Origin: a virus
Direction: 5' to 3' (one strand)
IMG/VR virus record: IMGVR_UViG_3300047471_000616
Location: 32,021-96,020 of that record
DNA length: 64,000 bases
Shown piece after piece: positions 3,921-64,000 of this stretch. A program made the translations under genes and the position numbers. The stretch's first letter is position 1. Every line of letters starts with the position of its first letter. The notes beneath the pieces were generated by a model, which did not search any database, had not been told where the DNA came from, and saw nothing but the letters and a program-made list of their open reading frames with translations.

Positions 3921-3924
3921 GCAC

Positions 3925-6323: not shown

Positions 6324-6538
6324 CCGACCCCTTTGACTTGAAAGCACCACTGGTCACGGCCCTGTCGGCGAACGTTTACTCCGATGGGGTGAGGCTTAGC
6401 TTTGGTGAAGCCCTCCCTGCCGCTGGTAAGTCAACTTATCATACAGCAGTCTTCATACCTGCCAGGCTCTTTGTGGAGCTCAGGAAGCTGATCACCAACA
6501 TAGAGCCCAAATTGGCTGAGATGAAAGATGCTGTATAA
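6320..6538 (+). CDS. Small hypothetical protein (DUF3467-like pattern)
   Basis: The 72-residue product overlaps the previous stop as ATGA. The pattern of a polar strand (ANVYSDGVRLSFGE), a loop, a hydrophobic strand (TAVFIPARL) and a C-terminal helix (FVELRKLITNIEPKLAEM) resembles the short DUF3467 family found in phages and bacteria. I assign that only tentatively. It overlaps the methyltransferase start by 11 bases. Confidence 0.55.
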   Translation: MTDPFDLKAPLVTALSANVYSDGVRLSFGEALPAAGKSTYHTAVFIPARLFVELRKLITNIEPKLAEMKDAV

Positions 6539-7442: not shown

Positions 7443-7987
7443 CGCTATCTCCTCCTCGTATTCAGGACACCCCAATGAGCCGTAAAAACAAGGAGGATTG
7501 GGGGCCAGGCCCCTGGCAGAATGAACCTGACGATAAGGATTGGGTTGACCCAGCCACCATGCTGGATTGTAAAATACTACGCGGCCCGTTTGGGGCTCTC
7601 TGCGGGTACGTTGGCGTACCGAAAGAGCACCCGGCTTATGGAATGAGCTACAGTTTTTATATAGAGGGCTATGTCGACGAAAATGTTGAGTGGTGGCGTA
7701 GGCACATCACCCATCGGGTAGAATACAAAATCATGGACATTGACGTGCACGGAGGGCTGACTTTCTCAGGCCCACACACAGACAGTGATCTTCACTGGTT
7801 CGGCTTTGATTGTTCACATGCCTTTGACTTTACCCCAGGATTACTTGACGGTGAGACTTTACAGCATATCCGCATGAAGGATGAAATTTACCGCGATATT
7901 GAATATGTCACCACGCAAGTCGAATCCTTGGCGAAGCAGCTGGCAGCAATAAAGAGGTTAGATGATGGACAGACAGGAACTAGTTAA
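7439..7987 (+). CDS. Conserved phage protein of unknown function
   Basis: The 182-residue product begins in ATGA overlap with the methyltransferase. A second in-frame ATG at 7475 is a possible alternative start. It carries GPWQNEPDD, LCGYVGVPKEHP, DVHGGLTFSGPH and HWFGFDCSHA, a motif set I recognise from many phage and prophage proteins without known function. Several Trp, His, Asp and Cys residues in these blocks could form a metal or catalytic site, but none is established. Its 3' end overlaps the sliding-clamp gene by 26 bases. Confidence 0.72.
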   Translation: MTLSPPRIQDTPMSRKNKEDWGPGPWQNEPDDKDWVDPATMLDCKILRGPFGALCGYVGVPKEHPAYGMSYSFYIEGYVDENVEWWRRHITHRVEYKIMDIDVHGGLTFSGPHTDSDLHWFGFDCSHAFDFTPGLLDGETLQHIRMKDEIYRDIEYVTTQVESLAKQLAAIKRLDDGQTGTS

Positions 7988-8990: not shown

Positions 8991-8991
8991 A

Positions 8992-9237
8992 ATGCAGGAC
9001 AGATTGAGGAATGCAAGACTGCATACATTCCAACAGCCTAAGGGGGCGTGCGCTGAATGCGGCGGGCGCGTTGTCTGCGATAGAACAACTAATTTGAATG
9101 GTGGCAGGACAATAGTTTCAAAAAAGTACTGTCTTGATTGTGGCATCCATCCAATTCCCTGGTGGAAACGGCTGAGCCCAACTGAAAGGATGATGCATTT
9201 CTTGCGTGTTGGTAAGTACGACCCAAGCAGGAGGTAG
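8992..9237 (+). CDS. Small zinc-ribbon protein
   Basis: The 81-residue product starts one base after the clamp stop, preceded by GGGAGAATAA. Two knuckles, CAEC (about residue 20) and CLDC (about 48), are separated by about 25 residues and probably bind one zinc. The C-terminus is basic (RLSPTERMMHFLRVG, then SRR). It lies between clamp and polymerase and may be a small DNA- or protein-binding factor. Function is not recognised. Its last codons overlap the strong ribosome-binding site of the polymerase. Confidence 0.68.
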   Translation: MQDRLRNARLHTFQQPKGACAECGGRVVCDRTTNLNGGRTIVSKKYCLDCGIHPIPWWKRLSPTERMMHFLRVGKYDPSRR

Positions 9238-9242
9238 CCATT
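9229..9242 (+). promoter_or_regulatory. Ribosome-binding site pointing to an ATT start codon
   Basis: AGGAGG at 9229-9234 is followed by a five-base spacer (TAGCC) and ATT at 9240. No ATG, GTG or TTG lies within normal reach of this site in the polymerase frame. The next candidate, TTG at 9300, has no Shine-Dalgarno sequence. ATT is a known rare start (infC in E. coli), where IF3 discriminates against it. Confidence 0.6.
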
Positions 9243-11918
9243 TCATTTTACTTCGCTAAGCAAGCCCGCAAGGCTGCAAAGCCTGCTGGCAAAGCCCCTT
9301 TGGGCACGCCCCGCAATGCCCGCGCCAGTGTGCAGGCGTTGCGTAGGCTTGGCTGCAAAGCCTGCCCCTTGAATAAGGCTGACGTGCAAACGCCCAAAAT
9401 GTTGCCTACGCTGGCACGCCAAACTGAAGTGTATTTTCTAGCTGAAGCACCAGGGAGGGATGAAGATGAAAACACGGGGAAACCGCTCACAGGTCCCAGT
9501 GGTACTCTTTTACGGCAGTGCATTCCTAACGGCTTTGTACCTGTATGCTCTTTTGACAACGTGTGCAACTGTCGACCCACCGATGCCAAAGGGAACCGCG
9601 CACCAACTTGGCAGGAAGTAGAATGTTGCCAGCCCAGACGGGTCAAATTCATAGAACAGGCCAAGCCCAAGCTGATTGTCGGCCTGGGGGCAGTGCCGTT
9701 GCAGGCCATACTGGGATCAGGTGACCTGGCCGGGATGCGCGGCAGGCTGTTCGCAGTCAAAATAGGCAGCCACGAATGCTGGTTCATGCCTACCTATCAT
9801 CCATCCTTCATCCTGAGGACCGCCTATGACAAGAAAAAGCCCCTCCAATCCAAACTCGGCCACTGCTTCAGGATGGATGTCCGTCGTGCTTGCGAAATGG
9901 CCGCAGAACTCAAACCCTGCAAAATTGATAGCGAAAGCGAAATCAGATCAGGAGTGCAGTGCTTTGACGGATCAGATCCCTCCCATTACGGAAAATTATG
10001 TGCGCTACTTGATCATGCTGGCCAGGCTGACACCCAGGCTGACACCATCGCAGTCGATATCGAGACCAGGGGACTCAGACCCTTCAGCGACGGCGCAGCC
10101 ATCATGTCTATCGCCATATCAACTGCAACATCTAATTTCAGCTTTGCAGTTGAACATCCAGCATCAGCATTTTCAGTTGATCAACGAAAAATCATTAGTG
10201 AGTTATGTGCAAGGATACTTGGAAGCAGCGGGCCGACTAAAGCCGCACATAACGCACCATTTGAGCTCGAGTGGTTTATCTGGCTATTTGGACGCGAGAT
10301 CGTGGACCACGCGACTTGGGAATGCACTCAGATGCAAGCCCATTTTCTGGATGAAAGGCGTGGCAAGCAGGGTCATGGGGAGGATAACTTCCGGGCTCCA
10401 TACCAAAGTCTAGACTTCCTGGTGAAGCAGCACTTCGGCATAAAATATAAGTCCATGTTCAAGCTGAACAAAAAGGACATGTCAAAGTCCGACCTAGGCG
10501 AGATGCTGATTTACAACGCCCTGGATACGAAGTATACGCTCAAGCTCCACCACGCCCAGACCAAGCTGCTGAAGGAGCGCGGGCTGCATGACGCCTACCT
10601 TGAGGCACTGCCACGGCAGTCTTCAGTAGCCTTGATGCAGACCCTTGGGGTGCTGGTGGACCAGGCTGAAGTCAAACGCAATCAGGCCAAACTAGGTAAG
10701 GAAATAGCTGGTATTGAGGCTGAGATGGACGCCCTGCCGGTTGTGCGTGAGTACAAGGCAGATCACCGTGAAGTCAACTTCGCAGCTGGCCCAGACTCCC
10801 TTGACATCTTCAAGGACTACTTGAAATGCCCAGAAGTGAGGGTCAATCCTGAACATCACGAAGTGCACGACTACAACATTGCATCCAAGGCTAAGCGCAA
10901 GTTTGATGAAGCACCAGGGAAACCCAAATATTCGGTGGATAAAAATGTGCTTGATAAGATTGACCATCCCCTCGCCAAACTTATCGGTGACTTGCGTAAC
11001 AAAACCAAACTCAAATCAACATACTGTGATGGTTTGGAATTCGGAAGGGGTGCTTTGGTGTACCCTGACGGTAGATTACACTGTAACTTCAACACCACCT
11101 TCGCAGAAACCGGGCGAACGAGTAGTGATGCTCCAAACATGCAAAATTTCCCCCAACGCAAAGACTCCTGGATCAGAAAGCAAATCGTGGCCCCAAAGGG
11201 TCATGTCTTTGTTGCGTTTGATTATGGTCAGCTAGAGGGTTGTACTGCTGCCATGTGCAGCAAGGACAAAGTGTTGGTGAAAGCCCTGTGGGAGGACTAT
11301 GACATTCACATGGAGTGGGCACAGAAGCTGGCTGCCAGGTACCCTGAGATTGGCGTAGCGGACAAAGCCCTGAGGGCACGGGTCAAAAACAAGCTAGTGT
11401 TCCCGGCCATCTTTGGGGCCAAGAATAGCTCAATTGCCGACTACCTGAAGGTGCCTGAAGACGTTATTGACGACATTATGGATTCTTTCTGGGAGACATT
11501 CGATGGCTTAGCCGAATGGCAAGATCGAATTATGAAATTTTACTACGAAGAGGGATATGTTGAAAGCCCAACTGGTAGGAGGCATCATTACCCCCTAACA
11601 AGGAACCAAGCTATCAACTTCCCCATACAAAGTGTAGCCTGTGATCTGGTCTGCTGTGCCATGAACGAGTTATCACACAAAGCAGTGTCGTCCGGCAATT
11701 GGCATCTGCATCCTATACTAAACATACATGACGATTTATCGTTCTCGATACCTGACAATGACCAAATTCTTGAGAAATCAATTGAAACTATCTACAGGGC
11801 CATGCTAGACCAACCATATGATTTTATCAATGTGCCTCTTTCCGTGAAGGCGTCGATTGGTAAGAATTGGTTTGATATGCAGGATATAGGGGCATTCTGG
11901 AGTCACAAGGATCTGTAA
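9240..11918 (+). CDS. Uracil-DNA glycosylase (family 4) fused to family A DNA polymerase
   Basis: Read from ATT at 9240 the product has 892 residues. Residues about 30-215 form a family 4 UDG: Cys pair in CKACPLN, AEAPGRDEDENTGKPLTG (about 68-85), NCRP, an ECC cysteine and HPSFILR (about 187), consistent with an iron-sulfur UDG. A 3'-5' exonuclease follows, with VDIETRG (about 272). The polymerase domain has motif A FDYGQLEG (about 660), motif B RVKNKLVFPAIFG (about 714) and motif C HDD (about 837). It is the replicative polymerase, apparently with built-in uracil sensing or excision. It overlaps the next ATG by one base (TAATG). Confidence 0.88.
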   Translation: MSFYFAKQARKAAKPAGKAPLGTPRNARASVQALRRLGCKACPLNKADVQTPKMLPTLARQTEVYFLAEAPGRDEDENTGKPLTGPSGTLLRQCIPNGFVPVCSFDNVCNCRPTDAKGNRAPTWQEVECCQPRRVKFIEQAKPKLIVGLGAVPLQAILGSGDLAGMRGRLFAVKIGSHECWFMPTYHPSFILRTAYDKKKPLQSKLGHCFRMDVRRACEMAAELKPCKIDSESEIRSGVQCFDGSDPSHYGKLCALLDHAGQADTQADTIAVDIETRGLRPFSDGAAIMSIAISTATSNFSFAVEHPASAFSVDQRKIISELCARILGSSGPTKAAHNAPFELEWFIWLFGREIVDHATWECTQMQAHFLDERRGKQGHGEDNFRAPYQSLDFLVKQHFGIKYKSMFKLNKKDMSKSDLGEMLIYNALDTKYTLKLHHAQTKLLKERGLHDAYLEALPRQSSVALMQTLGVLVDQAEVKRNQAKLGKEIAGIEAEMDALPVVREYKADHREVNFAAGPDSLDIFKDYLKCPEVRVNPEHHEVHDYNIASKAKRKFDEAPGKPKYSVDKNVLDKIDHPLAKLIGDLRNKTKLKSTYCDGLEFGRGALVYPDGRLHCNFNTTFAETGRTSSDAPNMQNFPQRKDSWIRKQIVAPKGHVFVAFDYGQLEGCTAAMCSKDKVLVKALWEDYDIHMEWAQKLAARYPEIGVADKALRARVKNKLVFPAIFGAKNSSIADYLKVPEDVIDDIMDSFWETFDGLAEWQDRIMKFYYEEGYVESPTGRRHHYPLTRNQAINFPIQSVACDLVCCAMNELSHKAVSSGNWHLHPILNIHDDLSFSIPDNDQILEKSIETIYRAMLDQPYDFINVPLSVKASIGKNWFDMQDIGAFWSHKDL

Positions 11919-12415
11919 TGGATACTAAACAGCTAGTAACAAGGCTTAAACGTGACTATCTTTATAATCAGGAAACTGGAGATTTCTATCATCTCAAAAG
12001 AGGTAGTACTGCTGGTTACCGGCGCAAGGATGGGTACGTTGAATTGTATGTAGGAGGGATGCCATATCTGGCCCACCGCATGGCGTGGCTGTACACAACT
12101 GGGCAGTTGCCGCATGAGGTAGATCACAAGAATGGGGTCAGATCAGATAATAGATGGTCTAATCTTCGTGAAGCTTCAAGAAGCCAGAATAATGGCAACA
12201 GCAACGGTTGGTCCAAATCAAAAAGGAAGAATAATTTGCCAAGAGGGGTGTACATCAATAAGGCCCTACCTCACAGGTTTTTGGCAAGGATAGAAATAGG
12301 CCGTAGGTGCATAAGCCTGGGAAGTTTTGACACTGTGGCTGAGGCAGAAACAGCCTACAAAGAGGCGGCGCACAAACACTTCGGTGTGTTTGTCAGGAGT
12401 AATCGTGATGTATGA
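11918..12415 (+). CDS. HNH homing-type endonuclease with AP2-like DNA-binding domain
   Basis: The 165-residue product has an HNH core: LAHRMAWLY, EVDHKNGVRSDNRWSNL and EASRSQNN (about residues 45-95). An AP2-like domain follows (RGVYINKA, FLARIEIG, LGSFDTVAEAETAYKEAA). This is a common layout of free-standing phage homing endonucleases that cut intron- or gene-free alleles. It starts in TAATG overlap directly after the polymerase, which is not interrupted. It is A/T-richer in codon use than its neighbours, consistent with insertion. Confidence 0.88.
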   Translation: MDTKQLVTRLKRDYLYNQETGDFYHLKRGSTAGYRRKDGYVELYVGGMPYLAHRMAWLYTTGQLPHEVDHKNGVRSDNRWSNLREASRSQNNGNSNGWSKSKRKNNLPRGVYINKALPHRFLARIEIGRRCISLGSFDTVAEAETAYKEAAHKHFGVFVRSNRDV

Positions 12416-12665
12416 GGACGTAGGGGCAATTGCTTGGGTGATCTTCATCATATTGCTTGCCTGGTTGATGTTCTGCGCCTGGCGCACGTCTAGGCAACAA
12501 CGTGCTCTGATAAATGCCCTGCTTATGGTTGAAAAATCAAGGATCAGAGCCGGGTTTAAGTACAATGAAGCCTTTTTGCTTCCGTTGAGGCGTGTTGGCT
12601 TTGGTAAGCACTTCTGGCATCTGTTCACCTTCCGCAACGCAGCAGGCCTCTATGACCGCAAATAG
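12408..12665 (+). CDS. Small single-span membrane protein
   Basis: The start ATG at 12408 overlaps the HNH gene by eight bases. The 85-residue product has an acidic N-terminus, one hydrophobic span (about residues 6-27, rich in Ile, Leu, Trp and Phe) and a positively charged C-terminal half (SRQQR, PLRRVGFGK), implying a cytoplasmic C-terminus. Its place inside the replisome gene cluster could mean membrane tethering. A holin role is unlikely given the separate lysis region. No family recognised. Confidence 0.6.
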   Translation: MYEDVGAIAWVIFIILLAWLMFCAWRTSRQQRALINALLMVEKSRIRAGFKYNEAFLLPLRRVGFGKHFWHLFTFRNAAGLYDRK

Positions 12666-13614
12666 CTTGCATACCCGGTACCGTCCCTTGAGTTTTGATG
12701 AAGTTCTCGGCCAAGATAATACAGTCGCTTCACTCAAACAGGCAATCAAAGGAAACCGCGCTCACAGCTACATCTTCACCGGCCCGTCCGGGACTGGTAA
12801 AACCACCCTGGCCCGCATCCTGGCCAATGAGTTTGCCGGGGTTGAGGCAACCATAGCAAACGTGGAGGAGATCGATGCAGCAACGAACTCTGGTGCTGAC
12901 GCTATGCGGAGCGTTGTCACTCGTTCAATGTACCGGGCCATTGGAGCTGGAGACGGTATCAAAAATATCATCATCGATGAAGCACACCGTCTGTCAGCAG
13001 CAGCCTGGACCATCCTCCTCAAACCGATAGAGGAACCGCCCAAGCACGTGTATTGGATGCTGTGCACTACCGAACCTGGGAGGATACCCAAAACCATTCA
13101 GACCCGTTGTCTCAAGTATGATCTAAAACCGGTAGGGGAGGAATTGATATATGAGCTACTACAATCTGTGGTCGAGGTTGAGGGGTTTGGAACCACCGAC
13201 GAAGTCATTGCGGCCATTGCCGAAGATGCAAGTGGTAGCCCTCGTCAGGCGTTGGTATGGCTGGAGGCCTGCATCCATGCGAAAAATGCCCAAGAAGCCC
13301 GTCAAATCATACGCAGTGCAACGCAAAGCCGTGAGGCGGTTGATCTGGCTAGATGGCTCCTCGGCGGGCGTGGCCAGACATGGGCTGAGGCCGTTAAGCT
13401 TGTTAAGGCCCTGGAAGGCACCGACCCTGAGAGCGTGAGAATCATGCTGATGAACTACTTCGGCAACGTGCTGCTCAATACCACTGGCGACGACAAGGCA
13501 CGGCAAGTGCTGGCACTCATAGAACCGTTCAGGGCTTCTTACAATGCCAGTGACCGCATGACCCCACTGCTGTACAGTATTGCGATGGCCATCAACCTGG
13601 ACTATCGTCCATGA
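12652..13614 (+). CDS. DnaX-like clamp loader ATPase
   Basis: The 320-residue AAA+ protein begins TRYRPLSFDEVLGQ, the typical start of DnaX/RFC subunits. Walker A is GPSGTGKT (residues 44-51). Walker B and sensor sequences are IIIDEAHRLS (about 105) and KTIQTRC (about 148), the latter like the SRC motif of loaders. The C-terminal 150 residues form a helical collar region. It would load the clamp encoded at 7962. The start at 12652 is preferred because DnaX homology begins there; it overlaps the membrane-protein gene by 14 bases. No separate delta-like gene is evident. Confidence 0.86.
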   Translation: MTANSLHTRYRPLSFDEVLGQDNTVASLKQAIKGNRAHSYIFTGPSGTGKTTLARILANEFAGVEATIANVEEIDAATNSGADAMRSVVTRSMYRAIGAGDGIKNIIIDEAHRLSAAAWTILLKPIEEPPKHVYWMLCTTEPGRIPKTIQTRCLKYDLKPVGEELIYELLQSVVEVEGFGTTDEVIAAIAEDASGSPRQALVWLEACIHAKNAQEARQIIRSATQSREAVDLARWLLGGRGQTWAEAVKLVKALEGTDPESVRIMLMNYFGNVLLNTTGDDKARQVLALIEPFRASYNASDRMTPLLYSIAMAINLDYRP

Positions 13615-14096
13615 CCGTAGACATTGACGAATTCAGAAAGTACCTGAAAATAGACAAGCAGGCGCTGGATGATGAAGTCATGCAGCAGCCATCCCTGTTT
13701 TTCGAGGTGTCTGAGGCTTATACTCAGGCAGTAGCAGAACGCGACGCTTTGAAGGAGGAACTGGCACTAGTTGATGGCAGCCTTTTTGGTGGGTATCGTA
13801 AACAAGATCCCAAAGCTACTGATACCCTCATTAAGAGCAAGATTAGTATTGAGAAAGGCCACCGGGCAGCATTTACTGAATACCTGGAAGCCAAGGAATA
13901 TGCAGATAAGTTGGGTGCGTTGAAGGATGCGTTTAACCAGAGGAGTGAAATGCTAAAAGCACTAGGTAGACTATACGCAAGCAACTACTTCGAGCAAATG
14001 GCACTGAAGCCAACGCAAAGCACTGATGCAATGGTCTACCGTCGTCAACGTGAACGTCTGACTTTACAACGGAAAGGAAAAGGAAATGAACGATAG
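13611..14096 (+). CDS. Conserved coiled-coil phage protein next to SSB
   Basis: The 161-residue product overlaps the clamp-loader stop as ATGA. It is almost wholly helical and charged. It begins VDIDEFRKYLKIDKQALDDE and ends LKDAFNQRSEMLKALGRLY and NYFEQMA. Proteins of this pattern are often found immediately before phage ssDNA-binding protein genes. A role as an SSB-associated or recombination mediator factor is plausible but not established. It overlaps the SSB gene by 11 bases. Confidence 0.68.
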   Translation: MTVDIDEFRKYLKIDKQALDDEVMQQPSLFFEVSEAYTQAVAERDALKEELALVDGSLFGGYRKQDPKATDTLIKSKISIEKGHRAAFTEYLEAKEYADKLGALKDAFNQRSEMLKALGRLYASNYFEQMALKPTQSTDAMVYRRQRERLTLQRKGKGNER

Positions 14097-15003
14097 AAGC
14101 TTTAGATACCAGTCCCGCTCCAAAGAAGATTGGCGTGAACGTGCCAACATGAAGGGCGGGCAGTTCGACAGCTACATCAAGCCTGCCTACAAGATGTACA
14201 AAGTCAAGGATGGCAAGAACCTGTTGCGCATCCTGCCGCCTACTTGGCCCAAGGCCAAGCATTACGGCTACGACATCTACGTCAACTTCGGTATTGGCCC
14301 GGACAATCAGGCTTACTTGTCATTGTCCAAGATGCAGGGCCAAGCCGACCCTATCGCTGAGGCAAGGCAGGTGGCTGAAGCCGAAGGCGATGAGACGGTG
14401 GTCAAGGCATTGCGCCCTACCTACCGGGTTCTGATGTGGGTCATTGACCGCAATGACGAGGAAGAAGGGCCGTTGCTATGGCCTTCCCCGTTCACAGTGG
14501 ACAAAGCCTTCATCAACTTGGCACGGGACCAGGATACGGGTGCCATCGTGGAGATTGATCACCCTGAGGAGGGGTGTGATATCCGCTTCTACCGTGAAGG
14601 CACTGGCATGACCACCAAGTATGATGCCAGCAAGATGCGCCTCATGGAGGCCGGGCCAATTGCAGACAATGAGAAGCAGCAGGCGAAGTGGCTGCAATAC
14701 ATTGCCGAAAACCCGGTGCCTGACTGCCTGCAGTTCTATGACTACGACCACATCAACAAGGTGTTCAGTGGCACTGCGCCGCGCCCCAAGGATGAGGAGC
14801 CGGAGCCTGCGCCACGCAAGGCGGCCAAGCCGGTTGATCCTGATCCTGAGGAGGAGTCTGACCCGGAGCCTGCACCCCGTCGCGCTAGGCCACGGGTAGC
14901 TGAGTCTGAGGAGACTGCCGATCCAGGCCCCAAAAGCGGGAGCATCAGGGACCGTATCAGGCGACGGCACCAGACGGCTAGTCAGCCCGCAGAGGAAGAC
15001 TGA
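14086..15003 (+). CDS. Phage single-stranded DNA-binding protein (gp32-like)
   Basis: The 305-residue product has a basic aromatic N-terminus (YIKPAYKMYKVKDGKN), a core with LLRILPPTWP and LMWVIDRND, and a long Pro/Glu-rich C-terminus. That tail alternates acidic and basic runs and ends in PAEED. An acidic tail is characteristic of phage SSBs, which use it to contact other replication proteins. AAAGGAAAAGGAA precedes the ATG. It is the last gene before a hairpin terminator, suggesting high expression of an upstream unit. No zinc-finger Cys set like that in T4 gp32 is visible. Confidence 0.78.
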   Translation: MNDRSFRYQSRSKEDWRERANMKGGQFDSYIKPAYKMYKVKDGKNLLRILPPTWPKAKHYGYDIYVNFGIGPDNQAYLSLSKMQGQADPIAEARQVAEAEGDETVVKALRPTYRVLMWVIDRNDEEEGPLLWPSPFTVDKAFINLARDQDTGAIVEIDHPEEGCDIRFYREGTGMTTKYDASKMRLMEAGPIADNEKQQAKWLQYIAENPVPDCLQFYDYDHINKVFSGTAPRPKDEEPEPAPRKAAKPVDPDPEEESDPEPAPRRARPRVAESEETADPGPKSGSIRDRIRRRHQTASQPAEED

Positions 15004-40206: not shown

Positions 40207-41316
40207 CTAGTTTAGGTCATGCAAGATCTGCTGGGCACGGTGCTTCCACAAGTGCTTATCAGCAATGATCTTGCGGCTTTCGGTTATGGCCTTGTTGCGG
40301 GCTGCATCGTCCTGCAGCCAGTACTTGGCCCGTTCTACGAAGTTGTCAGGTGTGTATTCGCCAAAGTGCACATCAGGTTCGAAGCTGGTGGTGAGCCTGC
40401 CCGCTGCCTGCGGGGCAGCACAAGAATGTGCCATGACGAAGCCACCAACTGCCATTGCTTCCAGTACCCGGCTATGCAAACCAAACCCATTCCAATTATT
40501 GTGCAGGTTGATTTTTGAATTGCGGTAAACTTGGTACAGTATCCTCTCATCCTTGATCGGCGCATAGGTGCAATTGCCAAACTGGTAGTATTTCTTCCAA
40601 TTAACACCATAAAATCCACACTTTGGTGACGCCAGGTAAGCCAATTGCGCCAATCGCAACCGATCAATATAACGTGGAAACTCAATAGCCATCCAGTTAC
40701 AAGACTTCCTCAACGTCTCATGTTCACTTTCACTGATCTTTTCGGTTGAGATTATCTTATCAACAAATTTCTGCAGATGTTCAGCCATCAGGAAGGCGTT
40801 GGAGCTACCGGTCAGAGGCCGGTACAGAAGTTCAGCCTCCTTGAAGCAGCGCCTTTCCAGCGGGTGCATATCCATCTTGCTGAAAGGCAACGTAATGTAC
40901 CCACAAATGGAAAAATCAAGTTCCCAAGAACCGTTTGCCTCATTCAGCAGTTCAGGACCAACCCCAGTCAACAGTGAGCCACGAAAATTAGGCCCTGCAT
41001 TGTTCATGCCGATCCAGGTTTCGCTGCCCAAGGTGTAGATTATGTCATTGCCCCTGGATTGCCCGGCGTAGTCCGGTGCTTCTAAAGGGCGGTAGTCCTG
41101 AACCCAGGCAATGTAAACACAATGGAAAGGCAATGCTTCTGGCCGTGGCCGGTTGACCCCCAGGACTATGTCGTAGCAACCAGCATCCCTAATGTTGTAG
41201 CTGTCAGTTGGCATGAGAACGTAAGAATGCCCGGCAGCTTCCAGGGCGCGGCCCAGTTCATGGGCTATCCTGAAGTCAAACGCCCTCTCGTATTCAGGAA
41301 TGAACAGAAATTTCAT
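40207..41316 (-). CDS. Glycosyltransferase, CgeB/GT1-like
   Basis: The 369-residue product is a GT-B-type enzyme. The N-terminal lobe (MKFLFIPEYERAFDFRIAHE, LGRALEAAGHSYVLM) and the C-terminal lobe (KINLHNNWNGFGLHSRVLEA then MAVGGFVMAHS, and FGEYTPDNFVERAKYWLQD) match the CgeB or Glyco_trans_1_2 pattern. The Glu in RVLEAMAVG is the usual sugar-nucleotide contact region. It overlaps the DUF5672 gene by 23 bases and is the last of three adjacent glycosyltransferases. It probably modifies a virion protein or host surface; donor and acceptor unknown. Confidence 0.78.
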   Translation of the reverse strand: MKFLFIPEYERAFDFRIAHELGRALEAAGHSYVLMPTDSYNIRDAGCYDIVLGVNRPRPEALPFHCVYIAWVQDYRPLEAPDYAGQSRGNDIIYTLGSETWIGMNNAGPNFRGSLLTGVGPELLNEANGSWELDFSICGYITLPFSKMDMHPLERRCFKEAELLYRPLTGSSNAFLMAEHLQKFVDKIISTEKISESEHETLRKSCNWMAIEFPRYIDRLRLAQLAYLASPKCGFYGVNWKKYYQFGNCTYAPIKDERILYQVYRNSKINLHNNWNGFGLHSRVLEAMAVGGFVMAHSCAAPQAAGRLTTSFEPDVHFGEYTPDNFVERAKYWLQDDAARNKAITESRKIIADKHLWKHRAQQILHDLN

Positions 41317-42055
41317 TGGTACCAGGATGCGCTAACCAGGGCATGATCAACGGCTGACGGCCCTTCCTGTACAACTCCAGCTTCTCACCCTTTTGCAGAT
41401 AGGGGTTTTCATTCATCAACCGCACTCGTATTTCAAGCCTATCCCCTTGTAAAACTAGGGGGAAGTTTAGACTGTCGTGAAACATGAAGTGTTGCGAATC
41501 CGGGGCTGGCCTGGTGCATTCAAAGGCGAACTGAGTTGCCAGGTGATTGGGTGCCCACTTGAAGCCGTGGGACTCAAGTTGTGCCCGGTACATGCGGCAG
41601 ATCAGGTGGTCCTCTTCCTTCAGGAAGAGCGGGAAGGTACCCCTGCGCTTTTCCAGGAACTGCATCAGCCGGGTTGAGCGTAGCCCACAGCCGTTGCCCA
41701 CGTTCCAGTTGTCTTCATACCACCATGGGGCACCAACGTAGTCATACTTCAGGAATTCATTGGTCCAGCACAGCGTGTTGATGATCCACGAATCCCATTG
41801 AATGAAGATGGCAAAATCAGTGGTCAGGTACTTTGGCACCCGGTACCAGAAAAACTTGTTGTAGTCTTCGTGCTCCAGCCACGGAGCAACTTCTACCCAC
41901 CGTGCCCCGCCTACCTTCAGATCAGTGTCTGAGAAAATGATGACGTCGCCAAACTCAATGCCACGAAGTGAGTCCTCAACGGCGAGCTTGGCTAGTTCTG
42001 GGCATGTAGTATCCATCATTACTAAAGAAACGCTAGGCAACTCAAGCTTTTTCAT
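41294..42055 (-). CDS. DUF5672-type glycosyltransferase
   Basis: The start at 42055 overlaps the previous stop (ATGA), giving 253 residues. Blocks VSLVMMDTTCPELA, DVIIFSDTDLKV, FAIFIQWDSWIIN, YDYVGAPWWYEDNWNVGNG, GLRSTRLMQFLEK and HLICRMYRAQLESHG match DUF5672, a GT-A-like family often found in capsule and LPS clusters. The Asp residues in FSDTD and WDSW are candidate metal ligands. It is co-transcribed with two other glycosyltransferases inside the head gene cluster. Confidence 0.8.
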   Translation of the reverse strand: MKKLELPSVSLVMMDTTCPELAKLAVEDSLRGIEFGDVIIFSDTDLKVGGARWVEVAPWLEHEDYNKFFWYRVPKYLTTDFAIFIQWDSWIINTLCWTNEFLKYDYVGAPWWYEDNWNVGNGCGLRSTRLMQFLEKRRGTFPLFLKEEDHLICRMYRAQLESHGFKWAPNHLATQFAFECTRPAPDSQHFMFHDSLNFPLVLQGDRLEIRVRLMNENPYLQKGEKLELYRKGRQPLIMPWLAHPGTNEISVHS

Positions 42056-43455
42056 GCTGCTTTCTGCTGCTTCCACGACCTGGCAAGAAGCTGCATCTCC
42101 CTGGCCACACGCTCCATAACTTCGTCCCAGTCACCCATTTGCTTCTGGCCGAAGATGCGCATGGTTGGGTACCAGGCCGTGTCTTCACGATTGTCCAGCC
42201 AACGCCAACAATTGTCAAACCGGCTGAGCATCCACACCGGTTTGCCAAGTGCCCCAGCAAGGTGCGCGACTGACGTGTCCACGGTGATCACAAGATCCAG
42301 GTTTTCAATCATCGCAGCAGTATCAAAGAAGTCATAGAAGTCGGCCGTGAAGTCGCCAATGGCCATGTTCTTTGGGGGCTTTCGGCACTGTGGGCCAGGA
42401 AGCCCCATTTGTAGTGAGATCCAGGCAAGGTCCGGCACTGCATCAGCTACGGGGGCAAATGAATTAAGGGTCAGTGACCGCCTGCGGTCAATAGAACTGG
42501 CCAACGGGTTGTTGTCCCTATTCATGCCTGCCCAGCAGATACCCACCAGCATGCCAGGCGGCATGGCTTTGAGTTGTTCCCGGAAAATACCAACGCGGTG
42601 CTTGTCCGCGTAGACGTAGGGGCACTTCGCCGGAATTTCATCGTAAACAGACCACAAGATACGTGGCAGGGACATGAGTGGGGCAACGGCAACAATACCA
42701 TCAGGCAGCATCTCACCAAAGGAAACTACACGATCCACCCCCTCCAAAGTTTCAGCAAGACGCAACACCGGGTGACGTACTTCCAGGAAGAGTTTGCCGT
42801 GCCAAATTTCCCTGACTATGGTGACGTAGCGCATGAACTGCAGGATATCTCCCATACCCTGCTCGCCGTAAAGCAATAAAATATCATCCTTGGATTTAGT
42901 ATCCTCGCCCTGCCATTCAGGGTAGGGCAGGTTGCGCGCCGGGGATTGAGAACTTTTCCAGCGCCATTCGTACTCTTTCCAGCCCTCTTCAAACCGGCCC
43001 AGTTGCAACAAGCAGAAGCTATAACCCAGGTGGCCGTCAACGTAGTCTGGCCCTACTTCGGTGGCCGTTTTGTATTCTTTGAGTGATTCCTCAATCTTGC
43101 CCAGCCGCCTGTAGCAAGCACCCCGGTTACTGAATATTTCCGGTATTCTTCCGCCCTTGAGCATGGCCGTGGATAGATCTTCCAGCGCCCGCTCAAACAT
43201 GTCCAGGTCCATGTAGGCGGCAGCCCGATTGTTGTAGAACTCAAATGCTTCGGGGTCTACGGCAATAGCCCGGTCATAATTGACAATGGCGTCGAACGGC
43301 TGGCCAAGTTGACCGATCATGGAAGCCCGGTTGTTCCAGGCCGGGGTAAAATCGGGCTTCACCAGCAGAATCTTGTTCAGGTACTCAATCGCCGTAAACA
43401 GATCACCTTTGGCCTGGAACCGTAGGGACTCAACGAACATATCTTGCCACAGCAT
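42052..43455 (-). CDS. TPR protein with GT9-like glycosyltransferase domain
   Basis: ATG 43455 follows AGGGAGCCTGTA, giving 467 residues. The first 180 residues are TPR units (YLNKILLVKPDFTPAWNNRA, NYDRAIAVDPEAFEFYNNRA, RGACYRRLGKIEESLKEYKT). The C-terminal GT-B domain has ILLLYGEQGMGDILQFMRYV near 200, VGICWAGM near 305 and DLVITVDTSVAHLAGALG near 390, as in GT9 heptosyltransferase-like proteins of alphaproteobacteria. TPRs may hold a protein acceptor. It is the first of three clustered glycosyltransferase genes. Confidence 0.82.
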   Translation of the reverse strand: MLWQDMFVESLRFQAKGDLFTAIEYLNKILLVKPDFTPAWNNRASMIGQLGQPFDAIVNYDRAIAVDPEAFEFYNNRAAAYMDLDMFERALEDLSTAMLKGGRIPEIFSNRGACYRRLGKIEESLKEYKTATEVGPDYVDGHLGYSFCLLQLGRFEEGWKEYEWRWKSSQSPARNLPYPEWQGEDTKSKDDILLLYGEQGMGDILQFMRYVTIVREIWHGKLFLEVRHPVLRLAETLEGVDRVVSFGEMLPDGIVAVAPLMSLPRILWSVYDEIPAKCPYVYADKHRVGIFREQLKAMPPGMLVGICWAGMNRDNNPLASSIDRRRSLTLNSFAPVADAVPDLAWISLQMGLPGPQCRKPPKNMAIGDFTADFYDFFDTAAMIENLDLVITVDTSVAHLAGALGKPVWMLSRFDNCWRWLDNREDTAWYPTMRIFGQKQMGDWDEVMERVAREMQLLARSWKQQKAA

Positions 43456-43585
43456 TACAGGCTCCCTCTGTTGGTGGCCACACTTTGTCGCTAGCATAAG
43501 TAAAAGCTAGAGCCAGGACTGCGGCTATGAATAGAGCCGCAGCAGGTTCCAGGATCAGTCTTTTCAGGGTTTTAACTCTGGTCAT
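43430..43585 (-). CDS. 51-residue single-span membrane protein
   Basis: ATG 43585 overlaps the previous stop (ATGA). The product has a basic N-terminus (TRVKTLKRLI), one span (EPAAALFIAAVLALAFTYAS) and a short tail with one Cys (GACNAVARYVR). The topology is likely cytoplasmic N-terminus. It follows another membrane-protein gene and overlaps the GT9-like gene by 26 bases. It may anchor the glycosylation enzymes or affect the envelope; this is speculation. Confidence 0.6.
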   Translation of the reverse strand: MTRVKTLKRLILEPAAALFIAAVLALAFTYASDKVWPPTEGACNAVARYVR

Positions 43586-53380: not shown

Positions 53381-53664
53381 TACAGTTTCTTACCTGTTTT
53401 CGGCACGCCCACCTTGTGCGCATGGGGTACGCCAGACAGCCTGAGTGCCCCCTCTATCTGATGGGCTTTGTGACCGAAGCCATGAGCCTTGGGGTGTGGC
53501 TGCCTTAGAACCGGCCCCAGGGCGTGAGTACGGCCTGGGTGCAGGGGCACCGAAGTAGGCTTGAACACGCCAGGGGTCTGTACCTTACCCACGGGGTTTT
53601 CCCCGGCCACTTTCTTGGCCGGGACTGCAGGCTCAGAAGCGTAAAACGGCTTCTTACTTGCCAC
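53380..53664 (-). CDS. His/Lys/Pro-rich small protein
   Basis: The start taken is GTG 53664, giving 94 residues; a longer reading from 53745 lies inside the upstream gene. The sequence is basic and His/Pro-rich (RQPHPKAHGFGHKAHQ). It ends GALRLSGVPHAHKVGV, closely like the end of the upstream gene (GVLRMSGHSGAHRVGH). The two may be related by duplication. It may bind nucleic acid or capsid. No enzyme motif. Confidence 0.55.
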   Translation of the reverse strand: MASKKPFYASEPAVPAKKVAGENPVGKVQTPGVFKPTSVPLHPGRTHALGPVLRQPHPKAHGFGHKAHQIEGALRLSGVPHAHKVGVPKTGKKL

Positions 53665-54478
53665 GATGGCCCACCCGGTGGGCACCTGAATGGCCAGACA
53701 TGCGCAGGACACCTTTACGCTGACCACCTGCATGTCCGTAGCCATGTGCCATGTTTGCAGCCGGTGGTCGGAAGCTGTGGGCTACCCCACCAAAATTCTG
53801 TCCTACGTGGTGTTCGGCAATGTCGGTGCGGCCAGCACCCAGGCTCTTGCCCTGAGGCTGGCTGTGGTTCCCAGGAGCTGGCCCCTTTTCCTGCAGTTCG
53901 CTGCCGCCCCGGTCAGCCGGGCCGTTATTCGCAACTTCGCCATGGTGCTTGCCCATACCTGAGCCTCCTTTTCCATGATGTTCAGTCAGTTCTGCGTCGT
54001 AGCTTTGGTTTGGCCTGTGGCCAGTAAATGTAGGAGCGTTGCCAATGGATTTGCCACGCGGCTGCTTGGCATGCGCCCCGGCGTTGTACTCACCATACGG
54101 CGGCTTCCCTTCACGCTTGAAGCCAGGGTTCCCTGGGAAGTGGCCGCTGCGGTCATAGCTGCCACCACCGCCATGTTTCACCGAATCCTCCTTCTTCAGG
54201 AATTTGGTATTTCTGGACTCAGTGCTTGCTCCGCCAAGAGCTGCCTTACCCATGGCATTGTCACGCTTTGCCCTGGACGCACCATATTTCTTGCCTTTGT
54301 CGGCGGCATGAAACTCTTTGGCCACCTTCTTAGGGATACCGGCTGCTTCACCAGTTGGTTGCCAGCCATGAGCAATGGCAGACATAGTCTTGGCTTGCTT
54401 GACACTGTGTGACGGCATTTTCGCTCTCCTGTTTCTGAGCGTGGTCGTGGCTAGTTCAGTCAGTCCGGGGCTGGGCAT
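53654..54478 (-). CDS. Gly/His/Lys-rich protein with capsid-like N-terminus
   Basis: The 274-residue product begins PGLTELATTTLRNR, 10 of 14 residues identical to residues 4-17 of the major capsid protein (PNLSEVVTTTLRNR). The remainder is low-complexity, rich in Gly, His, Lys and Ser (HHGKGGSGMGKHHGEVANNG, GHAGGQRKGVLRMSG) and strongly basic, suggesting nucleic-acid binding or a disordered virion component. The C-terminal motif recurs in the next gene. It is placed between spike genes and terminase. Confidence 0.6.
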   Translation of the reverse strand: MPSPGLTELATTTLRNRRAKMPSHSVKQAKTMSAIAHGWQPTGEAAGIPKKVAKEFHAADKGKKYGASRAKRDNAMGKAALGGASTESRNTKFLKKEDSVKHGGGGSYDRSGHFPGNPGFKREGKPPYGEYNAGAHAKQPRGKSIGNAPTFTGHRPNQSYDAELTEHHGKGGSGMGKHHGEVANNGPADRGGSELQEKGPAPGNHSQPQGKSLGAGRTDIAEHHVGQNFGGVAHSFRPPAANMAHGYGHAGGQRKGVLRMSGHSGAHRVGHRGK

Positions 54479-54480
54479 GA

Positions 54481-54606
54481 CTAGGAATTCTTCAATTGGC
54501 CCAGCGTAACGAAGAAGGGCAGGTTGTGCGGCTGTTCAGTGCCGCCGCCAGGTGGAGTGACACCGCCAGGATGGAAAAGCGTGCCCACCATGAGAAGTAT
54601 CGTCAT
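54481..54606 (-). CDS. 41-residue hydrophobic small protein
   Basis: ATG 54606 overlaps the glycosyltransferase stop (ATGA). The peptide has an aliphatic start (TILLMVGTLFHPGGVT) and a Pro/Gly-rich middle (PPGGGTEQPHN), ending FFVTLGQLKNS. No clear membrane span. It occupies a coupled position and uses the only frame in this gap, so it is probably real. Function unknown. Confidence 0.55.
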   Translation of the reverse strand: MTILLMVGTLFHPGGVTPPGGGTEQPHNLPFFVTLGQLKNS

Positions 54607-56327
54607 TGATTTGCTACCTTCAGTTCGTCTTGTTTCGTTTCGTGGCCGCAGTAGCGCCACCACATGGATCTGTAAGCATCTTCAACTTCCCCAACATAAT
54701 CACCGCACAGCGGGGATTTAAGGAACTGATCGCGCAATTCACTGCGGGCCTTGCTCAGTTCTGTACGTTCGGCTGCCAATTTGACCGCCTTGTTCACGTA
54801 ATCGTCTATTGACTTGGCAACCCAATTATCCCGTCCCATGATGTGCAGTGCCGTGGCAGTGGTCCTGCCACCTACCTGGCCATTGTAAAGGGTGATCACC
54901 GGGACACCCATGTAGAGGATTTCCAGGGCGGTGACACCGCCAGTATGCGGGAAGGTATCAAGCACCAGGTCGACGTTCTGGTAGATCAGAAACTGCTCGG
55001 GGTGAGAGCAATCCTGCATGAACAGGATGCGCTTAGGGTCAACATCGTGCATTACTTCGCGGATGCGCTTGATAGCGTAAGGCCGACGCATCCCCAGATC
55101 TTTGACTATCAACCGGCTGTTTGGCGTGCGCAGGAGTATCTTGTGCCACGCTTCTAGCGACTGTGGGCTGTATTTCTCAAACCGGCCAAAGACCCCAAAG
55201 GTGAAAATGCCATCCCGGCCTACTGGCGGGTGGCTGGCGCTGGGCTGATTGTAGTTCGGCGGTTCGTAGGCCACCACACAGGAAATATCCCATATTTTCT
55301 CAGCGAAGAACTTGCGCTCTTCTTCAGGAATTGAATAGGGATCAGCAAAGAAGTAATCAATCTCAGGGCAGCCGCTGCCATGAGCAAAGCCCCAAGCATG
55401 GATCTGAACCGGTGCCGGTTTACGGGTGAAAAGTGGCAGACGATTGCCCCCAGTATGACCAGATAAATCAACCAGAATATCAATGCCGTCAGCCCTGATC
55501 ATGGCCTCAGCTTCTTCATCATTCTTAGCTGAAATATCACGCCAGTTGGTCTTTTCCATAAACCGCTTGGTCTGAGAATCATCAGTACTTGCTGGCATCG
55601 TCATGTAGCAGTAAGGATCATAAGCATTGCGCTCATGGTACAGGATCACCTTGCCAAAGATGAAGGCTGCCGAATGCATCTTGAAGTCACCGCCGACGTA
55701 GCCTATGCGCAGCTTGCGGTCCGGTACGCGGTCATTGGCGTGCGGTTTCTTCTCACCTTTATAGGCAAACCGCTCATACCACACCTGCCGCGCCTTGTAG
55801 TTTTCTTCCGGCGTGGTATTCTTCAGCGTGCGGACAAAAACGCTGTTGAATCCCACCATTTCCCTTGTTGAATAAGGTGGCTCGAACGGCTTGGCTATGG
55901 CCGCCTCATAAGCCTCACAAGCCTCTGCTGCCTTCGCGCAGGCAGTAAGGATCATGCCCTTGGCGCAAAATGCATCGGCACTCTCAACAAGATTGATGGA
56001 CCGGTTGATGGCTTTCAGCGCCTCGTCAGGCCGTTCTACCTCAAGCAAGGCCAATGAATAATTGTACCAAGTTGTTGAATTCTTATCGTCGAACAGTAGC
56101 GACCGCTCAAGCCGCTGAATGGCCGCCAGAAACTGACCTTGCTGCGCCGCCATGACCCCGTGGTTGGCAGTAATCGGCCCATTGTTTGGGTCGATACGCA
56201 AGCCTTTGAAGTAGGCTTGTTCGGCCTCAGCAAAGCGGCCTGCTACATGATGCTGCAGGCCAATATCTAGCCACTCCTCAGCCATTGAGGAGCCAATACG
56301 CGGAAGCAAGTGGAACGGCTGTGGCAT
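54603..56327 (-). CDS. TPR O-GlcNAc-transferase-like (SPINDLY family, GT41) enzyme
   Basis: The 574-residue product starts after GAGGTAGAGT. TPRs occupy about residues 14-150 (HHVAGRFAEAEQAYFKGLRI, NYSLALLEVERPDEALKAI). The GT41 catalytic region follows: RIGYVGGDFKMHSAAFI near 205, DILVDLSGHTGGNRLPLF near 285, FGVFGRFEKYSPQSLEAW near 365, DLVLDTFPHTGGVTALEILY near 450 and GGRTTATALHIMG near 490. Bacterial and eukaryotic relatives glycosylate Ser/Thr of proteins. The neighbouring Ser/Thr-rich fibre proteins are plausible acceptors. Confidence 0.86.
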   Translation of the reverse strand: MPQPFHLLPRIGSSMAEEWLDIGLQHHVAGRFAEAEQAYFKGLRIDPNNGPITANHGVMAAQQGQFLAAIQRLERSLLFDDKNSTTWYNYSLALLEVERPDEALKAINRSINLVESADAFCAKGMILTACAKAAEACEAYEAAIAKPFEPPYSTREMVGFNSVFVRTLKNTTPEENYKARQVWYERFAYKGEKKPHANDRVPDRKLRIGYVGGDFKMHSAAFIFGKVILYHERNAYDPYCYMTMPASTDDSQTKRFMEKTNWRDISAKNDEEAEAMIRADGIDILVDLSGHTGGNRLPLFTRKPAPVQIHAWGFAHGSGCPEIDYFFADPYSIPEEERKFFAEKIWDISCVVAYEPPNYNQPSASHPPVGRDGIFTFGVFGRFEKYSPQSLEAWHKILLRTPNSRLIVKDLGMRRPYAIKRIREVMHDVDPKRILFMQDCSHPEQFLIYQNVDLVLDTFPHTGGVTALEILYMGVPVITLYNGQVGGRTTATALHIMGRDNWVAKSIDDYVNKAVKLAAERTELSKARSELRDQFLKSPLCGDYVGEVEDAYRSMWWRYCGHETKQDELKVANQ

Positions 56328-60673: not shown

Positions 60674-63600
60674 TTACGGGAAGAGATAGCCAACAATGGA
60701 AGCTGCGTTAAGGATAGACTTGGTAGTGGCACTGACCCCAAAGGCAATGGTTATGCCAGCAGCAATATCCTGAGCCAGGCCAATGATACCGCCAGAAACG
60801 ACGGCAGCATTGACGTTGATGAAAGCGTTGGCTGCAATCGGGGCCGCAGCCACGTTCGTTGGCTGAGCCGTAGAAACAAGCACGGCTATGGTATTGAACG
60901 TGGCCACTGCCGACGTACCGACAACAGCCTGAACAGAGTTGATGCGAAGAGTTTTACCCGCTGGGATGACCCAGGCAGTTGTCGCTGCCGCTGCCTGTGT
61001 TACGCCAGTATAGACCGTGAACAGAAGGGTTGTCAGTGCCGCAGGCGGGATAGTTGTCGTGACAACTATCACCACTTGAGTTCTGGCTACATCAAAGACA
61101 CTTATGTCTCCGGTACCGACCATCACCACCAAGCCTGTGGCATTGACGGAAGGCACCCCGGTCGTCATCACCACACTGCTGATAGCAACAGTTACTGTCT
61201 GTGTGGGTGCAAGCCAAACTAACTGTCCGGTAACAGCAGCCTGAGTAGTTGTCAGCACTATGCCAGAAGCACTGATGGTGCCACTGACCAGTACCGATCC
61301 TGAGATGCCAACCGAACCTGAGACACCCACCGATCCAGTGTTAGTTACCGTTACCGTACCGGTTATGGTCGTAGTGACTGTGGCGGTAACAGTGGCCGTC
61401 AGACTGATGGTTTGAGTTGGGGCCAGCCAGACTACTGCACCTGTCACAGCGGCCTGGGTAGTCGTGGCAACAGCGGTAGAAGCAGCAAGTGCTACAGAAA
61501 GCGTCTGAGTTGGAGCCAGCCAAACGATCTGGCCAGTAACTGCGGCTTGGGTAGTTGTGTTTACTACCCCAGACATAGTGATGGTGCCGCTGACTACTGC
61601 AGAAACTGATGCACCTTGCTGGATGGTTACGGAAACACCGCTACTGACGGTGACTGTACCACTGATAGCAGCAGATACTGTCTGCGTAGGTGCCAGCCAA
61701 ACCAGTTGTCCGGTTACCGCTGCCTGGGTGGTAGTATTTCCTATTCCTGATACAGATATTGTACCAGACACTACAGCAGAAACAGAAGCACCCTGCTGAA
61801 TAGTGACTGAAACACCACTACTGACAGTGACCGTACCACTGACAACTGCAGATACGGAAGCACCCTGCTGGATAGTGACGCTTACACCGCTAGATACTGT
61901 AACCGTACCACTGACAGCAGCAGTAATCGTCTGTGTCGGTGCCAGCCAAACTAGCTGTCCAGTAGCTGCTACCTGGGTGGTAGTATTTCCTATTCCTGAT
62001 ACAGATATTGTACCAGATACTACTGCAGATACTGAAGCTCCCTGCTGAATAGTAACTGAAACGCCACTGCTGACGGTAACGGTCCCGCTGACAACTGCAG
62101 AAACTGAGGCTCCCTGTTGAATTGTTACGCTGACACCACTGCTGACAGTAACGGTCCCGCTGATAGCTGCAGATACAGTTTGTGTTGGCGCAAACCAGAC
62201 TACCGCGCCTGTGACAGCAGCCTGAGTAGTCGTAGCTACTGCGGTAGTACCAATGTTGACTGACAGTGTCTGCGTAGGTGCCAGCCAGACTACCGCACCA
62301 GTAACCGCAGCCTGAGTTGTCGTCGCTACTGCTGTAGAAGCACCTATTGCTACAGTTAGAGTTTGAGTGGGGGCCAGCCAGACAAGGACGCCAGTGGCGT
62401 TCGCTTGAGTAGTGGTCATCACCGGTCCAGACAGGGAAACTGTACCGGTGCCTACTGTGACGGTCCCACTGACAACCGCAGAAACAGATGCACCCTGTTG
62501 AATAGTGACCGAGACGCCACTGCTAACAGTGACTGTCCCAGACACAACCGCAGAAACCGAAGCTCCTTGTTGAATTGTTACCGAAACACCGCTGCTGACG
62601 GTAACCGTACCGCTCACTGCAGCCGAAATAGTTTGCGTCGGGGCCAGCCAAACCAGCTGTCCAGTTACTGCAGCCTGAGTAGTGGTGTTTACTATCCCAG
62701 ATGCAGTTATGGTCCCAGATACTACAGCAGAAACTGAGGCCCCTTGTTGAATGGTTACAGAAACACCAGAACTGACGGTTACAGTACCAGACACTACAGC
62801 AGAGACAGAAGCACCCTGCTGGATGGTAACTGATACACCAGAACTGACGGTAACTGTTCCGCTAATAGCTGCAGATACTGTCTGTGTCGGTGCAAACCAG
62901 ACTACTGCACCAGTAACCGCAGCCTGAGTAGTTGTAGCTACTGCTGTAGAAGCACCAACCGCAACATTGAGGGTTTGTGTGGGGGCAAGCCAAACTAGAA
63001 TACCAGTGGCATTGACCTGTGTTGTGGTCATCACTGGGCCAGACAGAGATACCGTACCGGTACCTACCGTAACTGTCCCGGAAACTACAGCAGAAACAGA
63101 AGCTCCCTGTTGGATGGTGACTGAAACACCAGAACTGACGGTAACTGTCCCACTGACAACCGCAGAAACAGATGCGCCCTGTTGGATAGTGACTGAAACA
63201 CCACTACTGACGGTAACCGTACCACTGATAGCAGCAGATACTGTCTGCGTAGGAGCCAGCCAAACCAGCTGTCCAGTTCCAGCTGTCTGAGTGGTGGTAT
63301 TTACTATCCCAGATGCAGTTACAGTACCAGAAACTACAGCAGAAACAGAAGCACCCTGCTGGATGGTAACCGAAACACCAGAACTGACGGTAACGGTTCC
63401 ACTGACAGCTGCCGTCAGGGTCTGTGTTGGTGCCAGCCAAACTAGTGCACCAGTCGCAGCAGCCTGAGTGGTTGTGGCTACTGCCGTAGTAGAGGCCGCA
63501 CCACTGACAGAAACAGTACCTGAGATTACAATTGTGTTAGAAACACTGACGGTACCACTGATAGCAGCAGATACTGTCTGCGTAGGAGCCAGCCAGACTA

Positions 63601-64000
63601 CAGCACCAGTGACTGCTGCTTGCGTCGTAGTAGCAAGAGCTGTCGTAGCGAAACTGGCACCACTGATCGAGACTGTGCCACTGACAGCAGCAGAAATCGT
63701 CTGCGTTGGACCCAGCCAAACTACCGCACCGGTAACCGCAGCCTGGGTAGTCGTAGCTACAGCAGTGGTGGCGAAACTGGCACCACTGATTGAGACTGTA
63801 CCACTAACAGCCGCACTAATTGTCTGCGTGGGTGCGATCCAGACTACCGCACCTGTAACAGCAGCCTGAGTGGTCGTGGCAACTGCTGTAGAAGCCCCAA
63901 TCACCACAGACAGTGTCTGGGTTGGAGCCAGCCAAACTACTGCACCGGTAACTGCCGCCTGGGTAGTCGTAGCTACTGCTGTAGTTGCGAAACTGGCTGT
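60674..64000 (-). CDS. Giant uncharged repeat protein, fibre-like (5' end outside the window)
   Basis: The frame is open from the right edge to TAA at 60674, at least 1108 codons, and the start lies beyond the window. Seventeen VWLAPTQT-type modules (usually preceded by TTTQAAVTG) are visible, separated by spacers built largely from 12 copies of a unit with SSGVSVTIQQGASVSAVVSG. Composition is Thr, Val, Ser, Ala, Gly and Gln. No Asp, Glu, Lys, Arg or His occurs from the edge to about base 61109. The last 147 or so residues form a distinct domain (PPAALTTLLFTVYTGV, WVIPAGKTLRINSVQAVVG). It is probably an elongated surface fibre; no known family is recognised. Confidence 0.7.
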   Translation of the reverse strand, partial: TASFATTAVATTTQAAVTGAVVWLAPTQTLSVVIGASTAVATTTQAAVTGAVVWIAPTQTISAAVSGTVSISGASFATTAVATTTQAAVTGAVVWLGPTQTISAAVSGTVSISGASFATTALATTTQAAVTGAVVWLAPTQTVSAAISGTVSVSNTIVISGTVSVSGAASTTAVATTTQAAATGALVWLAPTQTLTAAVSGTVTVSSGVSVTIQQGASVSAVVSGTVTASGIVNTTTQTAGTGQLVWLAPTQTVSAAISGTVTVSSGVSVTIQQGASVSAVVSGTVTVSSGVSVTIQQGASVSAVVSGTVTVGTGTVSLSGPVMTTTQVNATGILVWLAPTQTLNVAVGASTAVATTTQAAVTGAVVWFAPTQTVSAAISGTVTVSSGVSVTIQQGASVSAVVSGTVTVSSGVSVTIQQGASVSAVVSGTITASGIVNTTTQAAVTGQLVWLAPTQTISAAVSGTVTVSSGVSVTIQQGASVSAVVSGTVTVSSGVSVTIQQGASVSAVVSGTVTVGTGTVSLSGPVMTTTQANATGVLVWLAPTQTLTVAIGASTAVATTTQAAVTGAVVWLAPTQTLSVNIGTTAVATTTQAAVTGAVVWFAPTQTVSAAISGTVTVSSGVSVTIQQGASVSAVVSGTVTVSSGVSVTIQQGASVSAVVSGTISVSGIGNTTTQVAATGQLVWLAPTQTITAAVSGTVTVSSGVSVTIQQGASVSAVVSGTVTVSSGVSVTIQQGASVSAVVSGTISVSGIGNTTTQAAVTGQLVWLAPTQTVSAAISGTVTVSSGVSVTIQQGASVSAVVSGTITMSGVVNTTTQAAVTGQIVWLAPTQTLSVALAASTAVATTTQAAVTGAVVWLAPTQTISLTATVTATVTTTITGTVTVTNTGSVGVSGSVGISGSVLVSGTISASGIVLTTTQAAVTGQLVWLAPTQTVTVAISSVVMTTGVPSVNATGLVVMVGTGDISVFDVARTQVVIVVTTTIPPAALTTLLFTVYTGVTQAAAATTAWVIPAGKTLRINSVQAVVGTSAVATFNTIAVLVSTAQPTNVAAAPIAANAFINVNAAVVSGGIIGLAQDIAAGITIAFGVSATTKSILNAASIVGYLFP
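61109..64000 (-). repeat. Protein-level repeat array within the giant fibre-like gene
   Basis: Two unit types alternate: a 20-25 residue module ending VWLAPTQT (17 visible) and a unit of about 23 residues with GVSVTIQQGASVSAVVSGTV (12 visible), plus short linkers such as GTGTVSLSGPVM. Copies are nearly identical as protein but differ at many synonymous positions as DNA. The array continues past the window edge. Confidence 0.85.

Follow-up and report, generated by a model that had tools for sequence, protein, structure and literature searches.

The window analysed here is a stretch of 64,000 nucleotides (record positions 32021-96020) whose right edge coincides with the end of the 96,020-bp virus record IMGVR_UViG_3300047471_000616. 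Against that edge, on the minus strand, lies the 3' part of a fibre gene (60674..64000), comprising 1,108 of its 1,706 codons and the stop, of which the first 42 or so codons repeat the other end of the contig. The gene encodes an uncharged repeat shaft, whose in-window part (61109..64000, minus strand) is made of 24-residue VSGTVTVSSGVSVTIQQGASVSAV units and TTTQ..VWLAPTQT modules, followed by a C-terminal knob (60677..61090, minus strand) that AlphaFold2, Foldseek and the family alignment together predict to be a jelly roll of the C1q/TNF-like type. Also on the minus strand, at 54603..56327, is a gene for a TPR and GT41 (SPINDLY/OGT-type) glycosyltransferase, recognised from Pfam PF13844, a PDB profile match and its co-occurrence with the fibre, while a sugar cassette identified by enzyme-family matches lies beyond the window on the upstream side of the fibre, at record 1975-9307 (minus strand). 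Elsewhere in the window (9300-11918, plus strand), a single reading frame encodes a DNA polymerase A that also has an exonuclease domain and, at its N-terminus, a uracil-DNA glycosylase domain.

The 96-kb phage contig closes circularly, since an exact repeat of 127 bp is common to both record ends, and the fibre gene crosses the junction; its frame goes on as a 5' part at record 1921-1 (minus strand, outside the window), with an ATG at 1921. A preliminary description of this DNA had reported at least 964 consecutive codons without a charged residue or histidine, and reading the frame bears this out: the stretch lacking D, E, K, R and H runs on the minus strand from window position 64000 down to 61109, and the first charged codon past it is the Asp at 61108-61106. 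The figure is a lower bound because the window stops at the contig end and the gene crosses it. When the frame is followed to its true start, as that description had proposed, and the overlap is removed, the whole fibre has 1,706 residues, with four charged residues among positions 1-41, none in a single run from 42 to 1562 (1,521 residues), and seven in the remainder. The long neutral repeat fibre first described is supported and is longer than it appeared. A relative on an unbroken contig (L013) has a 71-residue stretch that is identical to the window fibre and spans the junction. Read in its other five frames, this DNA gives longest uncharged runs of 17-34 residues, and among 300 base shuffles the longest run averages 28 with a maximum of 44. 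A frameshift hiding charged sequence, which had been raised as a reason for caution, appears unlikely given that relatives show the same kind of open frame; repeat copy number could be affected by assembly, but collapse is less likely because the copies differ at synonymous sites.

The shaft is 35% Ser and Thr and 20% Val, with no Cys and no Tyr. Sixteen copies of the 24-residue unit differ solely by V or I at the first position (pS 0.59, pN 0.06), and 25 copies of the TTTQ..VWLAPTQT module are similarly constrained (pS 0.65, pN 0.08). With pN low while pS is near saturation, the shaft repeats are under strong purifying selection at the protein level and are not recent DNA copies, which rules out a recent expansion of the DNA repeat as the source of the shaft. 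Of the possible non-stop single base changes in the shaft, 15.8% would introduce a charged residue. Collagen-type G-X-Y repeats were sought and are not present, the repeats being of the form VSGTVTV... and TTTQ..VWLAPTQT. AlphaFold2 gives the shaft no confident fold, and a short full-length relative (L114) is folded at the knob only; from composition alone, the shaft may be a beta-structured trimeric stalk.

With 15 relatives in the alignment, the sole well-folded part of the fibre in the AlphaFold2 prediction is the C-terminal domain of about 137 residues. Foldseek places the predicted knob with APRIL, 4-1BBL, C1q heads and the Bacillus protein BxpB/ExsF, at target TM-scores of about 0.5-0.63, and in a viral library its top matches are collagen-stalk proteins, some of them annotated with C1q domains. 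The predicted knob, which is a model and not a solved structure, thus has the jelly roll that characterises C1q/TNF-like proteins, while Pfam models of the C1q/TNF family find no sequence match in the fibre C-terminus. Proteins of the C1q/TNF fold are usually trimers, and the modelled fibre is probably a trimer also. The fibre probably sits on the virion, and may be on either head or tail: its gene adjoins beta-helix and tail-spike-like genes in the window phage, whereas in L101 it has a head-protein gene on one side and later genes for virion structure on the other.

Scans of IMG/VR recovered a family of such fibres. L013 encodes one of 1,457 aa whose C-terminal domain is 77% identical to that of the window fibre, and more distant members range from 365 to about 1,860 aa. 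Taken together, the shafts of 15 fibres lack Cys altogether and have 48 charged residues among about 14,500, over a G+C range of 52-73%. The preliminary description held the neutral run to be exceptional even for fibre proteins; this is so beside the other genes of the window, in which the next longest uncharged run is 74, and not within the family, where the run of L017 reaches 1,556. The C-terminal domain is similar in all family fibres and closes with G-Y-L-F or a near-equivalent, and many of them begin with a motif like VA.D..GG...Q.VKLV.G; the alignment of the C-terminal domain is too diverse to serve as a scan pattern. The fibre had no match in Pfam, in PHROGs, among PDB sequences or in 50,697 phage records, the last by a BLAST search run with the low-complexity filter on, and neither full-length L013 nor the window C-terminal domain matched the PHROGs fibre families. 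Of the fibre records, that of L013 alone shares a portal family with the window phage, none of the others has the major head family of that phage, and different portal or head families are present in the L101 and L116 records. Judged by these sequences, several of which come from fragments, the fibre occurs in differing phage backgrounds. The nearest named phages by portal, at about 34% identity, infect Bradyrhizobium, Rhizobium and Myxococcus.

The window enzyme scores 146.9 bits against PF13844 (Glyco_transf_41), for which the curated cut-off is 25. A profile of eight phage GT41 sequences searched against the PDB finds Arabidopsis SPINDLY as its best match (E 3e-120), across both the TPRs and the catalytic domain, with human OGT lower. 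Four residues that are invariant in the eight sequences (D214, H218, S219 and K385) correspond to D491, H495, S496 and K665 of SPINDLY, in which H495 and K665 mutants are inactive (PMC9715652). Y744 of the SPINDLY sugar pocket is replaced by an invariant histidine (His461) in the phage enzymes, and T748, which contacts phosphate, by valine in most of them. By sequence, then, the window enzyme belongs to the GT41 family but is set apart from SPINDLY proper, because Y744 and T748 are not kept; the same two changes leave its activity and donor uncertain and suggest that the donor is probably not GDP-fucose. Protein O-glycosylation of the OGT/SPINDLY type is known chiefly from eukaryotes; GT41 enzymes of bacteria that are homologous to OGT act little, if at all, on bacterial proteins in the work published (PMC9715652). 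At E 1e-8, no GT41 relatives were found among 50,697 named phage records, a search of limited sensitivity that is nevertheless free of the bias towards fibre-associated enzymes present in our reverse scan (see below), and a search of open-licence papers turned up nothing relevant on SPINDLY or OGT in phages. When genome contigs were scanned with GT41, distant bacterial enzymes alone were found, at most 39% identical; no prophage was seen and no long uncharged frame lay near these bacterial matches. Three distant GT41 relatives with a WGFAHG-type motif (L122, L123 and L124) are on contigs of Alphaproteobacteria MAGs, two of them sharing one contig.

The association between fibre and glycosyltransferase holds in both directions. 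Looking from the fibre, GT41 is present in eight of nine records, the ninth being a 15-kb fragment. Among 24 controls chosen by portal similarity, which are mostly smaller genomes and in which fibre absence was judged by the knob profile only, 23 have neither GT41 nor the fibre end, and the single one with both has 100% portal identity, which makes it this phage again or one almost identical to it. Fisher's test gives p 2.6e-7 for 9/10 against 0/23, with related phages counted as independent. Looking from the enzyme, with a scan that was built from fibre-associated sequences and shares the limited reach of pattern scans, 13 of 18 viral GT41 loci have a neutral fibre upstream on the same strand, and a further four are cut by a contig end before or within the place of the fibre. 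In L099, L101, L104, L110 and L116 the GT41 gene is the immediate next gene after the fibre, within about 30 bases, and in L108 one small frame separates them. At the one locus truly without a fibre, L117 (GT41 at 10001-11713), no neutral fibre lies within 10 kb in either direction, and the record has genes for the SPASM enzyme and the nucleotidyltransferase; what this GT41 modifies must be another protein or lie farther away. L104 has two GT41 genes (5399-7126 and 12359-14125), one on either side of the fibre, and these could have different targets or different sugars. Close to GT41 in two phages is a His/Gly/Lys-rich protein with pieces such as GKHHGEVA (window 53654-54478, minus strand; L013 15432-16208), which is as strongly charged as the fibre is neutral.

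The cassette of the window phage contains an acetolactate-synthase-like TPP enzyme, a SPASM radical-SAM enzyme, a glycosyltransferase, a putative sugar O-methyltransferase, a GmhA-like isomerase and an HldE-like kinase/nucleotidyltransferase. In other phages the TPP enzymes are of a split E1 type. The SPASM enzyme is present in all 16 fibre/GT41 records, which are related to varying degrees, and in none of 15 controls. The HldE-like nucleotidyltransferase is present in 13 of the 16 and again in none of the 15, and the three records without it are pieces of 15-31 kb. The GmhA- and HldE-like enzymes suggest, as a guess from their families, an activated sugar of the heptose type. The window also has a small glycosyltransferase group between head and tail genes (40207-43497, minus strand), with three members, one GT1-like, one a DUF5672 protein and one a TPR protein; by profile match, the glycosyltransferase-like protein (PF13524; 40207..41316, minus strand) and the TPR protein with its weak GT9/heptosyltransferase match (42052..43497, minus strand) are possible members of the sugar machinery.

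The reading that we favour, and regard as reasonably probable, is that the fibre is a trimeric virion filament whose uncharged, Ser/Thr-rich shaft is O-glycosylated by the linked GT41 with a sugar made by the phage. The fibre would be synthesised as a neutral chain rich in Ser and Thr, to which GT41 would add an O-linked sugar in the host cytoplasm, before assembly. The activated sugar would come at least partly from the phage, through the TPP, SPASM radical-SAM, GmhA-like, HldE-like and sugar O-methyltransferase enzymes. The knob would trimerise the fibre and a short N-terminal anchor of about 40 residues would fix it to the virion, while the uncharged residue set may give the shaft a uniform surface of acceptors and make it bind charged matter poorly. 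The fibre might serve in receptor binding at a distance, in low adhesion to charged matter or in masking. O-glycosylation of the fibre is proposed because three things point there: the family of the enzyme, its linkage to the fibre, and a sequence rich in acceptor residues. The preliminary description had guessed at a glycan-coated filament, and that guess gains a footing now that the fibre proves to be linked to sugar genes and to a protein O-glycosyltransferase of the GT41 family; the antifouling role suggested there as well is a conjecture. Sequence, selection, family, predicted knob fold, linkage and enzyme families are computed results, from which we infer the trimer, the place on the virion, the glycosylation, the kind of sugar and the benefit. 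A more specific version, which we put forward tentatively and as having somewhat less than an even chance, is that these genes are a mobile phage cassette, shared by phages with unrelated heads, through which a SPINDLY-type enzyme with an altered pocket puts an undescribed sugar on hundreds of shaft Ser and Thr residues. The radical-SAM/SPASM and TPP enzymes would then feed the HldE-like nucleotidyltransferase, and the whole would be a dedicated phage system of protein O-glycosylation.

It is possible, though we think it unlikely, that the fibre is long but otherwise ordinary and binds a receptor with its C1q-like knob end, in which case the shaft is neutral merely as a beta-type spacer and GT41 and the sugar genes alter sugars or proteins of the host, for example in excluding other phages. 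The tail-spike-like genes beside the fibre, the further glycosyltransferases that the phage carries and the presence in L117 of a GT41 without a fibre are all compatible with such a host target. However, TPR-type GT41 enzymes as a family glycosylate proteins, this one is a tight neighbour of the fibre in many phages, and other long spacers need not be free of charge. Rather less probable still is a modification of the fibre peptide itself by the SPASM radical-SAM enzyme, such as epimerisation or crosslinking, with GT41 taking a second step or acting on another protein. The constancy of the SPASM enzyme in the fibre/GT41 records would be expected if this were so, and its sole PDB sequence match is a peptide maturase, SkfB. 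The shaft may also resemble the polytheonamide peptides, which are neutral and modified by radical-SAM enzymes. Yet the SkfB match is weak (9e-6), the NCBIfam matches of the enzyme all fall far below cut-off, radical-SAM/SPASM enzymes work on small molecules also, and this one keeps company with sugar enzymes. Thioether crosslinks of the sactipeptide type are excluded, there being no Cys in any shaft. An artefact of assembly or of repeats, or a repeat expansion without function, might be suspected of a repetitive gene that is split over contig ends, but we give it hardly any credence: the same architecture is found on unbroken contigs from many samples, purifying selection between the copies is strong, and the L013 sequence spans the junction.

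That fibre, sugar-attaching enzyme and sugar-making genes travel together suggests that these phages coat their own fibres with a sugar of their own making. If this is true, it would represent a new class of glycosylated virion filament, and would mean that selection can strictly keep charge out of more than 1,500 residues. The recurrence of a compact enzyme and candidate acceptor pair beside a probable sugar pathway means that substrate, sugar and function can be tested with few genes.

The features of this system have partial analogues elsewhere. Its enzyme shares the combination of TPRs and a GT41 catalytic domain with human OGT and with SPINDLY, the GT41 protein O-fucosyltransferase of Arabidopsis, but has few TPRs, lies beside a fibre gene and is accompanied by sugar genes of its own. 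In mycobacteriophages Che8, Corndog and Myrna, phage glycosyltransferases modify virion proteins of the capsid and tail tube (Freeman et al. 2023, cited in PMC12363180); in that account, as cited, neither a neutral fibre nor a SPINDLY-type GT41 is described, and we set these systems apart by description only. Viral proteins with a collagen stalk and C1q-like head, from giant viruses and uncultured phages, share a stalk and a C1q-type knob with our fibre according to the fold comparison, but their stalk is collagen and the similarity is limited to the fold of the knob. In outline the fibre would also resemble BclA of the Bacillus exosporium nap, which has a glycosylated repeat shaft and a C-terminal trimer-forming domain of the BxpB fold class (PMC10470788); Foldseek matches the phage knob to BxpB, in the same fold class. 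BclA combines an N-terminal anchor, a long repeat shaft and a C-terminal trimer-forming domain, an arrangement that is predicted for the phage fibre as well. BclA has collagen G-X-Y repeats, whereas the phage shaft consists of V/T/S/A repeats without a collagen motif; the two are not sequence relatives, and the likeness is one of overall design.
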